Source: Brachyhypopomus gauderio (lineage: Eukaryota; Chordata; Actinopteri; Gymnotiformes; Hypopomidae). From it: a DNA stretch of 64,000 nt. Made by a program: the position numbers and the translations under genes. Within the stretch, counting starts at the first letter, position 1. Each line of letters starts with the position of its first letter. The notes below the pieces were generated by a model, which saw nothing but the letters and a program-made list of their open reading frames with translations, did no database searches and was not told the DNA's origin. Below are positions 19,749 through 62,732 of the stretch, in pieces. The DNA is taken from NCBI RefSeq assembly GCF_052324685.1, contig NC_135226.1:18549973-18613972 (forward strand). The letters run 5' to 3'.

Positions 19749-38106
<18,358 letters not shown>

Positions 38107-41593: not shown

Positions 41594-44177
41594 TACCAAA
41601 TCCTCCTCACTCTCTTCAGGCCCATGTTTGGATCAAATGTCCCAGGTTAACCCTGAACTCTTTCCGAGTTGCGCCTGCTCACCCTGCCAACGACGCCTCT
41701 GCCACGTACTGTCTCCAGAGTGCCCGACAGGCTGAAGATTCTCCAGTGACGTTCTCGGAGCTGAACGACTTCGGCGCCCAGGTTCTCCAAGCGGATAGAG
41801 TATCGCCACTGAGACATAGAAGCACAAGTCCTCGTCCCTGGAGCTGTCCCCATAAAGTGAACGATGCGTCTGAAGTGACTCCTGTTAATCCGGTGACTCT
41901 ACTTACCCAGTACACATATGAATTCTGTGCTTCCTATACGAGACAATAACACAATTAATAAAACAGATACACAGAGACTTCAGTCCAAATGGTCGGGTTC
42001 CCTCTGCGATTGCCTTCACCCACCCTCATGCCCATGTAGAAGGGGATGACGGTGACGCGGATATTCTCTGTGGTCTCCCTGTGTACGTCAGACAGCTCCA
42101 GCCATGGATGGTTCTTCTCCTGCCAGGCCTGAAGTGTGTCTCTCTGGGTAAAAGAGGGCGCTGTGTAGAACAGCACAGACACAGTCCCATCACCGGGGGT
42201 CAGAGACAGGATGAATTTTGAGTGATCGAGTGAGAAACGCATAGTTACTTTTGGCTGGATTAAATATGAGAAAGCGTTCAAACAGCTCATGCTGGATAGG
42301 AACTTGTTCAGTCGAGCTGTACGGCAGGATATCTTCATGGCTCACGTAATCCAGACCTGAAAGACGGAAGTTTAAGGGGACTGCAGCTTGAAATGGAGTC
42401 CAACACGCAGAGACAAAATTAGTGAACTTGGTGCAGACACTGCTTGAAGTCCCAGACCTGGTATGGCGTACAAGGCTCTGCTGTCGTCATGATTGGCCAG
42501 AAACGTAACCGCCTCCGTTTGAGACCTCTGAGACTGAAACAACACACCTGAGATGAATTTATGTGTAAACATGCGCACAATATTACGAACAGAGCAAAGT
42601 GGAGAAAAAATATTGTATATAATCTATAGAAAATGGTTGAACTCACTATATGGGGGCAGTCACGGGTGTCTATGAGGACCTGGTAGTATGTGTGTGTTTT
42701 TCCTTTTACTTCTTTTGACTCGTAGCCTATAGATTCTGGCTTACTGTAATGAAATAAAACAGAGAATGTTAAGCCAAAATGATCAAATGTGTAGTAAAAG
42801 CAGAATCCTGCAGGGCATGTTGGCGTCCATACGCCAGCAAGTGCTTATTTACTGCTCCTCACTGCTGTGTTTTTAGCTGACCCGTCCCTATAACCACTGA
42901 AAAGTCAGAACGTGGCACCTTTTTAAAAGGTCCATGAATTAATGGGCTACCTGTCTGACGGGGTGGGACTGACATCTCGATCGTAGAGCCGAGCTTGCCA
43001 GGGGAAGAGCACTATCCCTCTGTAGCCGAACACACTGTGGAGGAAAAGCTGAAAAGACACCATCAAAACCACTTCCGTCGCTCAGTGGAGCGGGTGGGTG
43101 ACACGATCGATACGTCTGGCAGATATTGACTGAAATCCAGGTAAGACGCACCTGGCCCGTCTCGTACTTTCCGTGCTGCTTTGGTGCCTCAAACACCCCA
43201 ACGGTCTCCAGCACTTTGTCATCAGGCCTGTTTCTGCAAAAACGGGCCAGAAATGACCAAAAAGGCGATGACCTAGCAGTCCTGGCAGCAGACACACATG
43301 CTCAGCACTCGGAAAAATCGCTGCATAATTCCCAGTGCATTTAATAAAGTGCTTTCGTGTCATGCACAGCAACAGGAAATGTAAGCCTGAATGTTACACA
43401 AGCGATGTGGATTCCTGGACACGGGCCAGTATGCTCTGAATCTGCGTGCCCTAGATAGCTCCTCTCTCAGATGAAAGGACTACCAGAAAGGTCTGTCTGG
43501 TGGTCTCCATTCCCTGATATCCAGTCTGGGTCAATCCATTGGCCCTGGGTTAGCCATTACCACAGGTACTCTGATTTGGCAAAATCATAATGATATCCAT
43601 TTCAAGTTTGAATTGCTCACATACACTATGTCCATTAAAGTTATAATTTCAGGTTCTGCTGGAAGCATTTGCAAAATACATCCATAGAATTCTTTAGGGT
43701 GGGCATTTGGGCCCTGTGACCAAGCTTAACCTATCATATTATATGCCACCAAGCTAAAAATACCTGGGCTATAATTTGCACCTTAGAGCATATTTTTAAA
43801 TCCTTTCTGTGACGTTCACTACGTGATAACAGGTTATAAAAGGAAACAGTAATACCTATATATATATAAGCCATCGACTTGGCTTCATTTCATGATGCAA
43901 AAGGGAAGTGAAGATTATTAGACTCTATTATACAATTAATTACAGACACAAGTCAAAGGAAGGCGCGCGAGCACGGGCGCGCGCAGACGTCTTACCGCGA
44001 CGACATGAATCTGGTTTGCCGAAAACTGGACAGGACGCACACTAAACACGACGGCCGAGCTCTGGTCCAGTCCGGTCCACACTTATAGTCCGGACCTCTC
44101 AGTACTCTGTGGGGACATTTCTTGTTGCATTTACTGACTGTCAACAACAAACCCCGACGTATTGCGCGCGCAGCCAT
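41111..44177 (-). CDS. poldip2: polymerase delta-interacting protein 2
   Basis: Protein known to bind the p50 subunit of DNA polymerase delta and PCNA and to act in mitochondria and redox signalling. Eleven exons join in frame: 44177-43996, 43233-43152, 43048-42951, 42743-42647, 42533-42458, 42356-42249, 42160-42024, 41933-41907, 41808-41683, 41528-41449 and 41225-41111. The product is 375 aa (human 368). An Arg-rich, acid-free N-terminus (MAARAIRRGLLL) fits a mitochondrial presequence. The YccV-like domain has KVLETVGVFEAPKQHGKYET and FGYRGIVLFPWQARLYDRD. The ApaG-like domain has NIRVTVIPFYMGMR, RLENLGAEVVQLRERHWRIF and TLETVRGRGVVGR. The C-terminus is DGSHFDVRIPPFSLESNKDD. Exon 8 is a 27-nt microexon (EAQNSYVYW) that restores the block expected from the family. 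An upstream in-frame Met (44204) is possible, but the chosen Met matches relatives. It is head-to-head with tmem199, as in human. Confidence 0.97.
41563..41589. repeat. poly-T tract in poldip2 intron 9
   Basis: 27 T on the + strand (poly-A on the transcript strand), 35 bases upstream of the exon 10 acceptor. It may be the tail of a processed insertion, but no attached element is seen. Confidence 0.85.
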
Positions 44178-44404
44178 CTTTAACACGCACGCTGGAGTGT
44201 ACAAAACGCGTTAGAAAATGAACAGAAAGCGCCCGTAAACCTACTCCCTGTTACTCTGGAGGGGTATTTACTAACTACACACATGCATCAACTTCTAAAG
44301 CACCTGAACTGCGGACATTTGCACACTTTAGGACTACTTTGGCAGCTCCATATATTCCCATAATGCACCGCGCCCCTACACACTAGCCTATTTTAAAAGT
44401 ACAG

Positions 44405-44640
44405 CACACATATTATAACTACACAAATAAAACCATAATCCACACATATTATAACTACACAAATAAAACCATAATCCACACATATTATAACTACACAAAT
44501 AAAAACATAATCCACACATATTATAACTACACAAATAAAAACATAATCCACACATACTATAACTACACAAATAAAACCATAATATACACATATTTTAACT
44601 ACACAAACATAAAACATAACATACACACATTTTATCAGTG
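44405..44640. repeat. 36-bp tandem array, about six copies
   Basis: The unit is CACATATTATAACTACACAA then ATAAAACCATAATCCA. Copies differ by AAACC/AAAAC and ATATT/ATACT changes. It lies about 230 bases upstream of poldip2. Confidence 0.92.
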
Positions 44641-45281
44641 TTTTGTGTCAAAAGATAGCTGAGAAATGGAAAGCGTTGTGTCGAACGTGTTAAGTTCACG
44701 TTAACTCGTGATTAGTCTGTTCTGGCTGTTCACGAATATTGACTGATCGGTCCAATTATGTAAAACATTTTGAAATGTACACATAATGTACTAATAGTTG
44801 ACAGTATTAGGAATTAACACGGGCCCCTATAGCCAATCGTAAGGTCTCTCTGCATCATAACAGAATGGGCACGTTATGTAGCGTAAGTAGGGGACATAAA
44901 CTGTACTAAAGCAGTATTATCGGAACCAGGTGAAACGTTTTATCAGAACTTTAGACAACAGGGAAATCACAGCGTCCAACGCGGCGTGGGCCTACGTCAT
45001 CTTTATGCGCCGAGTTCCACGCCATCATGTCGCGCCGAGTCAGCTGATGGGGTCGCTGGTAACAGTAACAACTGACTTGTTTCAGGTTTGACATGTAGAG
45101 TTTTTGAAACGTGATGTAGCCAAATTATTTAACATCCCGGCATATGTTTCCATCGACAGTCTCCAAGGTGAGGTTTAACTAGTGTTTGGCGGAAATAACT
45201 TCATTTCCTACCATTGTCTTAGGTAGTTAGCATGTGGCTAGCATTTGTTAACAGTGTGTTGGTGGGATTAGTGGGCAGCAG

Positions 45282-45757
45282 GATGATCGATGATATGATG
45301 GTTATATATTCACTGATGTATTAGTTATTATTAGGATAACCACTCTGATCAATACACAGGTGTACACAGACCTCTATAGATCGGTAATATGATGGTTATA
45401 TATTCACTGATGTATTAGTTATTATTAGGATATCCACTCTGATCAATACACAGGTGTCCACAGACCTCTATCGGTCGGTGATATGATGGTTATATATTCA
45501 CTAATGTATTAGTTATTATTAGGAATACCACTCTGATCAATACACAGGTGATCAATATACAGGTGTCCACAGACCTCTATCGGTCGATGATAATGGTTAT
45601 ATATTCACTGATGTATTAGTTATTATTAGTATAACCAATCTGATCAATACACAGGTGTACACAGACCTCTATTGATGGGTGATATGGTGGTTATATATTC
45701 ACTGATGTATTAGGATAACCACTCTGATCAATACACAGGTGTCCACAGACCTCTATC
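45282..45757. repeat. 94-bp tandem array, five copies, ending at the tmem199 start codon
   Basis: The anchor GGTTATATATTCACTRATGT recurs at about 45300, 45394, 45488, 45595 and 45689 (period 94; one unit is 107 because of a local duplication of the GATCAATACACAGGTG part; the last is shortened). Each unit contains CAGGTGTMCACAGACCTCTA, which resembles a splice acceptor. The last copy ends 10-12 bases before the ATG. Confidence 0.93.
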
Positions 45758-45767
45758 GGATTGTGCC

Positions 45768-48373
45768 ATGGCGTCTTCATTCACACTCGGCAAGAAGTTT
45801 CGTGAAAAAGTCAACGAGTTATTGGAGAACGAGTCCTGCATCACACAGAGTCTAATCGAGCAATTGCGAGCTCTCAAAGAACAACCACATATTTCATTTA
45901 AAACGGCCAGAAAACTGCAGAACTCTCTAAAGGAAAATGGTAAGAATTACAGTTGGAACTTGTTCTCCTAAATATAGGAGTTAGTTTGTATTTAGTGAAG
46001 TATTTGGCAAAGGGTACAATGCCCTGATAAACATTTTGGTCAGGAACATCTAATATAAAGTAGGATCATTTGGATAGTTTTAAGTATTTCTCCTTGTGAT
46101 GGGGTTGATGATGCAGTTCTTCTGTGTGTAAAGGATATCCAGTCTTTCTTCATGAGCTGCTGGAAGACAGCTCACTTAATCTGCCCAGGGTCGAACTGCC
46201 TCCAAGAGTAAGTGAAGTTATACTCCTCAATCTGTACACCTTTTATAGCGTTTAAATGTAATCCAGTGTCTTAATGTATTTCCACTGTTAATCTGTACAC
46301 CTTTTATAGTGTTTAAATGTAATCCAGTGTCTTAATGTATTTCCACTGTTAATCTGTACACCTTTTATAGTGTTTAAATGTAATCCAGTGTCTTAATGTA
46401 TTTCCACTGTTAATCTGTACACCTTTTATAGTGTTTAAATGTAATCCAGTGTCTTAATGTATTTCCACTGTTAATCTGTACACTATGAACAGAACCCTCA
46501 GCTGGTAGCTCGCCTAGAAAAGATTAAGGCAAAACTAGCCAACGAAGAATATAAGAGAATCACACGGAACGTAAACCCACAGGTTGGTGCTTGTCCTGCG
46601 TTCACATCTCAGGGACAGTGTTACCATTAGCATGCTGTGTTATTCATCGTCATTCTACACTGAGAGGATCTTCTACATATGACAAACATCTGCATGATGG
46701 TTTTTGCATGTTTTTCTACCGACAGGAAGTAAATCATGGAAGCTTAGCAGACTTGGGAAGTCAAGGTCATTGTTATTTTTTAAAATTTATTTTCTCTCTT
46801 CTGTTGCCATAAACATTATTGCAGAATTCTCATGATCACGCTCATATTTTTGTCCTGCAGTGCGCTCCGTCAAAGCTGTTGTTGTTACCGTATTCAACTT
46901 CCTGGTAACAGTGATTGCAGCCTTTGCTTGCGCCTACATTGGCAGTCAGTACATCTTCACGGAGACGGCAGCGGTAAGAGCAGCTTCTGTGTGTGCGTGT
47001 GTGTTCAGCAAGTCCCGTGTGTGCGTGTGTGTTCAGCAGCTCCCGTGTGTGCGTGTGTGTTCAGCAGGTCCCGTGTGTGCGTGTGTGTTCAGCAGCTCCA
47101 GTGTGTGCGTGTGTGTTCAGCAGCTCCAGTGTGTGCGTGTGTGTTCAGCAGCTCCAGTGTGTGCGTGTGTGTTCAGCGGGTCCCGTGTGTGCGTGTGTGT
47201 TCAGCGGGTACCGTGTGTGCGTGTGTGTTCAGCAGGTCCCGTGTGTGCGTGTGTGTTCAGCAGCTCCAGTGTGTGCGTGTGTGTTCAGCGGGTCCCGTGT
47301 GTGCGTGTGTGTTCAGCGGGTCCCGTGTGTGCGTGTGTGTTCAGCGGGTCCCGTGTGTGCGTGTGTGTTCAGCGGGTCCCGTGTGTGCGTGTGTGTTCAG
47401 CGGGTCCCGTGTGTGCGTGTGTGTTCAGCAGGTCCCGTGTGTGCGTGTGTGTTCAGCAGGTCCCGTGTGTGCGTGTGTGTTCAGCAGGTCCCGTGTGTGC
47501 GTGTGTGTTCAGCAGGTCCCGTGTGTGCGTGTGTGTTCAGCAGGTCCCGTGTGTGCGTGTGTGTTCAGCAGGTCCCGTGTGTGCGTGTGTGTTCAGCAGG
47601 TCCCGTGTGTGCGTGTGTGTTCAGCAAGTCCCGTGTGTGTTCAGCAGGTCCCGTGTGTGCGTGTGTGTTCAGCAGGTCCCGTGTGTGCGTGTGTGTTCAG
47701 CAGGTCCCGTGTGTGCGTGTGTGTTCAGCAGCTCCAGTGTGTGCGTGTGTGTTCAGCAGGTCCCGTGTGTGCGTGTGTTCAGCAGGTCCCGTGTGTGCGT
47801 GTGTTCAGCAGGTCCCGTGTGTGCGTGTGTTCAGCAGGTCCCGTGTGTGCGTGTGTGTTCAGCAGCTCCAGTGTGTGCGTGTGTGTTCAGCGGGTCCCGT
47901 GTGTGCGTGTGTGTTCAGCGGGTCCCGTGTGTGCGTGTGTGTTCAGCGGGTCCCGTGTGTGCGTGTGTGTTCAGCGGGTCCCGTGTGTGCGTGTGTGTTC
48001 AGCAGCTCCAGTGTCTGTGTTCGGCAGGAATATTCAAACTGCAAAATGGATGTTGAAAAAACTCTAGATGATAACATGCATAATTAATCCCCCCATGTTT
48101 CTTTTTCAAACATAATAGTTTCCTACTTTTTAAGTGCTGGAATTTTCTGGGCACTTTATGAAACAGAAAAATATTCTGTGTGAAATCAACCCTGTAATCA
48201 TGCACTATGGGTTTGTTAACTTTGTTTATTCATGACATGTAATGCTGTAGTAATTATGAGGTTCTCCTTGTTTGCAGAGAGTCATTACCGCAGTGATCGC
48301 TGCATCTGTAGTTGGTCTAGCAGAGCTTTACGTTCTGGTCCGAACTGTGGAGGGAGACTTGGGAGAGCCATGA
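45768..48373 (+). CDS. tmem199: transmembrane protein 199 (Vma12-like V-ATPase assembly factor)
   Basis: ER/ER-Golgi membrane protein homologous to yeast Vma12, needed for assembly of the V-ATPase V0 sector and Golgi homeostasis. Six exons join in frame: 45768-45939, 46134-46207, 46493-46582, 46726-46765, 46861-46973 and 48278-48373, 194 aa (human 208). The cytosolic N-terminal part has [20 protein letters not shown] and the signature [26 protein letters not shown]. Two membrane helices follow: [20 protein letters not shown] (about 134-153) and [19 protein letters not shown] (about 166-184). The end is EGDLGEP, close to human GELGEL. The start is the Met matching human MASSL. Introns 2 and 5 and the stretch before the ATG hold tandem arrays; exon 6 is separated from exon 5 by a 1-kb minisatellite. 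It converges on smtnl2. Confidence 0.94.
46229..46487. repeat. 61-bp tandem array, four copies plus a partial, in tmem199 intron 2
   Basis: The unit starts AATCTGTACACCTTTTATAG and ends ATTTCCACTGTT, with copies at 46229, 46290, 46351 and 46412 that are nearly identical. The partial fifth copy at 46473 (AATCTGTACAC) runs straight into the real exon 3 acceptor at 46492. Each unit thus carries a pyrimidine tract plus AG that resembles the real acceptor region. Confidence 0.95.
46989..48028. repeat. 28-bp minisatellite, about 37 copies, in tmem199 intron 5
   Basis: The unit is GTGTGTGCGTGTGTGTTCAG followed by CAGGTCCC; variants end CAGCTCCA, CGGGTCCC or CAAGTCCC. A few units are shortened by two to ten bases. 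Because the period is 28, all three + frames translate to the same 28-residue cycle and stay open for about 400 codons; this is not a protein gene. The array begins 15 bases after the exon 5 donor. Confidence 0.97.

Positions 48374-49693: not shown

Positions 49694-62732
<13,039 letters not shown>

Follow-up and report, generated by a model that had tools for sequence, protein, structure and literature searches.

Three tandem arrays lie in or at the small gene tmem199, and each had been described as repeating a segment that resembles a splice acceptor. This raised the question of whether acceptor regions had been copied here in some special way, or whether the arrays are what any stretch of such a genome may hold. 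We addressed it in the window, the whole 64-kb stretch of DNA that was analysed, and the answer is very probably the second: ordinary minisatellites in a fish genome rich in such repeats, with decoy acceptors in intron 2 that may be used at a low level. Six coding exons on the plus strand (45768..45939, 46134..46207, 46493..46582, 46726..46765, 46861..46973 and, with the stop codon, 48278..48373) were assembled into a 194-aa CDS with no stop codon inside it. The assembled protein matched Pfam Vma12 (E 2.7e-24), and we take the gene to be tmem199, as the vertebrate member of that family; in the PDB the protein had a single chance match (E 0.66). The minus-strand exons upstream presumably belong to poldip2, whose start was placed from the ORF at 43995-44210 (minus strand), so that the two genes diverge. 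A literature search on tmem199 introns in zebrafish returned nothing about these repeats, judged by titles.

The presence of three arrays was borne out by TRF. A 94-bp unit is repeated 5.0 times (45285..45758, 81% matches) directly 5′ of the ATG, a 61-bp unit 4.2 times (46229..46483, 99% matches) in intron 2, and a GT-rich 28-bp unit 37.1 times (46989..48014, 94% matches) in intron 5. The latter two are intronic on the assembled gene model, and all three arrays consist of head-to-tail units of 10-100 bp in at least three copies. TRF also revealed a fourth array, absent from the earlier note, of 36 bp × 6.3 (44405..44635) just upstream, between the divergent poldip2 (minus) and tmem199 (plus). 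The arrays had been called mutually unrelated, and in blastn each unit indeed matched its own array, the sole exception being 16 bases at 55582-55597 that match the 28-bp unit, its lone outside match in the window. No match of the 94-, 61- or 36-bp unit was found in 28 sampled genome loci; the 28-bp unit matched four of these 28, besides that one window site, over 16-19 bases only, and we read its short outside matches as GT tracts. A 13-mer of the 94-bp array, CAGGTGTCCACAG, had 42 genome hits compared with 48 for its reversed control, and hence is not a dispersed motif. That the arrays descend from a dispersed element was rejected, with the 13-mer at chance level and the units matching only short tracts in the 28 loci.

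To judge how unusual the three arrays are, the assembly (796.5 Mb, 840 contigs) was sampled for background, counting arrays with a period of 14 or longer, at least three copies and a TRF score of 150 or more. The background consisted of 10-kb stretches at random places within parts of 15 large contigs. Of 60 such places drawn, the first 20 were used, and 17 of these entered the density count after one that was wholly satellite and two with at least half unreadable letters were left out. This small sample, about 0.02% of the genome, held 24 arrays of this kind over 164,033 bases, or some 1.5 per 10 kb, which occupied 7.0% of bases, whereas the window contained 7 arrays occupying 5.7%. Eight further loci of 3 kb were kept outside the density count; together with these, and with the three stretches left out of it, all 28 loci held 38 arrays in 207,069 bases. 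The stretch left out as satellite was filled by a 293-bp repeat in about 34 copies, and within the window an array of 33 bp × 30.3 at 24982-25980 contained several long open frames on both strands.

The clustering of the three arrays was found to be mild. When 7 arrays were placed randomly in 64 kb, three fell within 2.7 kb in 14.7% of trials (P 0.147), and the three-array cluster was rejected as significant in itself at this P of about 0.15. Four arrays within 3.6 kb gave P 0.019, a figure chosen post hoc, after the fourth array had been seen. Against the ordinary reading, three arrays per 2.7 kb are uncommon for any one stretch, with a Poisson chance of 0.8% for three or more; scaled to the genome, and extrapolating from a small sample, this figure would correspond to some two thousand such stretches. 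Among 2482 overlapping sampled stretches, 0.6% touched three or more arrays, and none held three whole. The statement that three such arrays are unlikely to be ordinary background did not stand up to the sampled density, 24 arrays in 164 kb against 7 in the 64-kb window. We propose that the three arrays arose independently, by slippage or unequal exchange as the presumed mechanism, and that selection would tolerate them where they are, within two introns and in the leader or 5′ flank.

The acceptor-likeness of the units was examined by scoring AG sites with one vertebrate acceptor matrix, on which all the acceptor scores given here depend. As a yardstick we used nine poldip2 exons picked by eye, whose acceptors scored 1.3 to 7.4, values that are biased high because, wherever more than one AG was possible, the best-scoring one was chosen. 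Of the five tmem199 acceptors, three scored 5.5 to 6.5, while those of exon 2 (−1.38) and exon 3 (−3.28) were lower, the latter being the weakest of the gene. The best repeated AGs scored −0.7 to −0.9 in the 94-bp array, 0.1 to 0.9 in the 61-bp array and 2.6 in the 28-bp array, in its CAG/G form. Scoring with this splice-site model did not single the units out: they were equalled by 65% (94 bp), 40% (61 bp) and 8% (28 bp) of random segments of the same length (3000 draws each, from the window outside the arrays), and by 53%, 28% and 5%, respectively, of dinucleotide shuffles (1000 per unit). Fisher's method, applied by hand to the three segment figures, gave P about 0.26. Acceptor-like units also occurred at similar rates among the 38 other arrays, which again goes against the exclusion of ordinary background. 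On either strand, 21 of these reached the level of the 94-bp unit, 18 that of the 61-bp unit and 7 that of the 28-bp unit; the corresponding counts were 11, 7 and 3 on the listed strand alone and 14, 13 and 5 on the opposite strand. The acceptor-likeness of the units is thus not clearly beyond chance, and the 28-bp unit alone leans acceptor-like, not strongly (8% of segments, 5% of shuffles). In the ordinary reading, the resemblance of the units to acceptors would be due mainly to how common an AG in AT-, pyrimidine- or GT-rich DNA is. In a fish genome this rich in minisatellites, splice-like units in tandem arrays are to be expected anyway, so that the presence of three arrays does not by itself point to a mechanism.

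Intron 2 is the place where the special reading has most to draw on. The 61-bp array fills 255 of its 285 bases and, as had been claimed, leads straight into the exon 3 acceptor: it ends at 46483, 9 bases before the start of exon 3, and the acceptor AG is at 46491-46492. The real acceptor ends in 9 bases, TATGAACAG, that differ from the repeated CTTTTATAG. Four decoy AGs precede 46249, 46310, 46371 and 46432, with scores of 0.88, 0.12, 0.12 and 0.12. Of the sequence leading up to the real exon 3 acceptor, 52 bases recur identically and in register in the units before 46371 and 46432, and 51, likewise in register, in the unit before 46310. These three in-register decoys outscored the real acceptor (0.12 versus −3.28), and the decoys have a better pyrimidine content near the AG. 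The claim that duplication copied acceptor regions finds support only in intron 2, in three units over 51-52 bases.

The exact register of decoy and real AG, together with the weaker real acceptor, exceeds what the ordinary reading needs. Without three of its units, however, intron 2 would measure about 102 bp, suggesting a short ancestral intron of which the 61-bp unit was the greater part. The unit would then carry the pyrimidine region and putative branch region of the exon 3 acceptor because it is most of that intron, and for the same reason no special mechanism is required to account for a copy of the acceptor context. A duplication that included exon 3 itself was rejected, the bases past the decoy AG being unlike exon 3 by eye. 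Use of the first decoy, before 46249, would leave an intron of 41 bases, which is too short for a vertebrate intron. Splicing to any of the four decoy AGs is predicted to produce a stop at codon 101 or 111, and transcripts with such premature stops are expected to undergo decay. Low-level decoy splicing in intron 2 is possible from the sequence, and the three remaining copies, acting as weak decoys, may divert a minor fraction of the transcripts into nonsense-mediated decay. The intron would offer a clean natural test of how the spliceosome selects one acceptor from several nearly identical contexts, in a case where the correct acceptor is the one that matches the consensus worst.

The broader proposal of the earlier note, that acceptor regions were repeatedly duplicated and that about 46 functional decoys regulate or burden tmem199, can be weighed at this point. 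It draws on the decoys of intron 2, which score 0.12 to 0.88 compared with −3.28 for the real acceptor and of which three repeat its upstream 51-52 bases, and on the CAG/G sites of the 28-bp array, which at 2.63 fall within the range of the poldip2 acceptors. It has to contend with the random segments that match the unit scores (65%, 40% and 8%), with the restriction of CAGGT to just 16 of the 28-bp units and with the 41-base intron left by the first 61-bp decoy. We regard this proposal as improbable.

The 94-bp array raises a separate possibility concerning the leader. Its copies are spaced by 94, 94, 107 and 94 bases, and the 13-mer CAGGTGTCCACAG that was said to recur in it is exact in three of the five copies, while the other two read CAGGTGTACACAG. 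The best AGs of these units (−0.7 to −0.9) lie below all nine poldip2 acceptors (1.3 to 7.4). Upstream of the array lies a possible donor for a non-coding leader exon, CCAAG/GTGAGGTTT (45168..45176, plus strand), in which the junction CCAAG/GTGAGG at 45167/45168 scored 6.70, within the top 0.14% of GT sites of the window. A non-coding first exon of tmem199 might end at 45167, with the 94-bp array in a leader intron and its last unit supplying the real acceptor. Such an arrangement would remove all 18 ATGs that lie 3′ of the candidate donor and ahead of the coding ATG. Of these, 17 fall within the array or next to it (45283 to 45705), and past the last-unit acceptors, before 45739 or 45749, there is no upstream ATG. 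It is also consistent with CpG content, as the bins at 44900 and 45000 are the richest two of fifteen 100-base bins between 44300 and 45799. However, both acceptors available in the last unit score poorly (−0.9 and −1.5), no upstream ORF among the 18 reaches into the coding start, six further ATGs precede the donor (44981-45167), and the transcription start might lie 3′ of the array. We consider a leader intron possible, though less likely than not. It would be compatible with the ordinary origin of the arrays, and the array would then alter leader splicing rather than protein splicing. A stronger version, in which the working acceptors of the leader intron and exon 3 are provided by, or lie next to, the last units of two arrays, the other units compete with these and array length sets how much mRNA is productive and how much is destroyed, appears highly improbable. 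If it were true, V-ATPase assembly capacity would depend on minisatellite length.

The 28-bp array occupies a different position: it begins 15 bases past the donor of exon 5, and 263 bases separate its end from exon 6. It was said to repeat an acceptor-like segment followed by CAGGT; TTCAG was present in 37 units, and the continuation to CAGGT was found in 16 only, the others reading CAGCT (8), CGGGT (11) and CAAGT (2). The CAG/GTCCC units scored 2.63, in the top 4.9% of AGs and inside the poldip2 range. Real donors of tmem199 scored 0.03 to 4.7, the lowest being the weak exon 4 donor TCAAG/GTCATT at 46766 (0.03). Inside intron 5 the best donor reached 0.06, and consequently no strong cryptic exon is expected there. 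The unit is mainly alternating GT, with GTGTGTGCGTGTGTGT before the AG in its consensus, and GT/CA tracts are frequent elsewhere in the window. The array looks like a (GT)n-derived minisatellite that grew near the donor rather than the acceptor. All three plus-strand frames are open across it (46784-48087), and retention of intron 5 would extend the exon 5 frame to a stop at codon 524.

The alternation of GT brings to mind another role, in which the array would bind a UG-binding repressor of the TDP-43 type, silence the CAG acceptors and act as a sink. There is a precedent in mouse, where TDP-43 silences cryptic exons beside UG repeats, and those repeats are described as its binding sites (PMC5289002). 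Intron 5 has the UG tract, as GTGTGTGCGTGTGTGT before the AG, and the acceptor. Its donors, however, are weak (best 0.06), and GT/CA tracts are, as noted above, frequent elsewhere in the window; we hold this role, with its putative repressor binding, to be very unlikely.

The ordinary reading can also be set beside other systems in which tandem arrays meet splicing. Zhuo et al. are said to have described, in 2007, introns born from tandem arrays. The 28-bp array resembles that situation in having AG and GT adjacent in tandem copies (CAGGT, 16 units), and differs in that the tmem199 arrays seem to have expanded inside pre-existing introns and in that array donors are weak: the 28-bp acceptors score 2.63, while the best donor of intron 5 (0.06) is close to the weakest real donor of the gene (0.03). 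The 25-bp VNTR in intron 18 of human ABCA7 lies beside a donor and is described as altering splicing, with frameshift products among the changes near it (PMC5954066). Like the array in intron 5, for which it is a precedent, it is a short-unit, many-copy intronic array near a donor. As described there, the ABCA7 VNTR is polymorphic and contains the donor itself, and its effects on splicing were measured, whereas the tmem199 array starts 15 bases past its donor and is known from one assembly. Minisatellites within genes, with units averaging about 30 bp, have also been reported to alter gene structure in human segmental duplications, where the repeats sometimes activate cryptic splice sites (PMC2812944). 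The likeness lies in such units within genes; those cases, as that source presents them, are recent paralogs with transcript comparison, whereas tmem199 is a single gene read from sequence. High tandem repeat content throughout the genome is likewise described for Nothobranchius furzeri, a minisatellite-rich fish whose most abundant families are centromeric (PMC2688266), whereas the arrays sampled here are scattered and mostly short.

Two further features of the window were recorded. On the minus strand, an open frame of 592 aa at 33593-35371 contained an RVT_1 reverse transcriptase domain (E 1.9e-37) and probably belongs to a LINE-like element. Beyond tmem199, a minus-strand frame at 50392-50655 has what we take to be the appearance of a calponin-homology domain exon.
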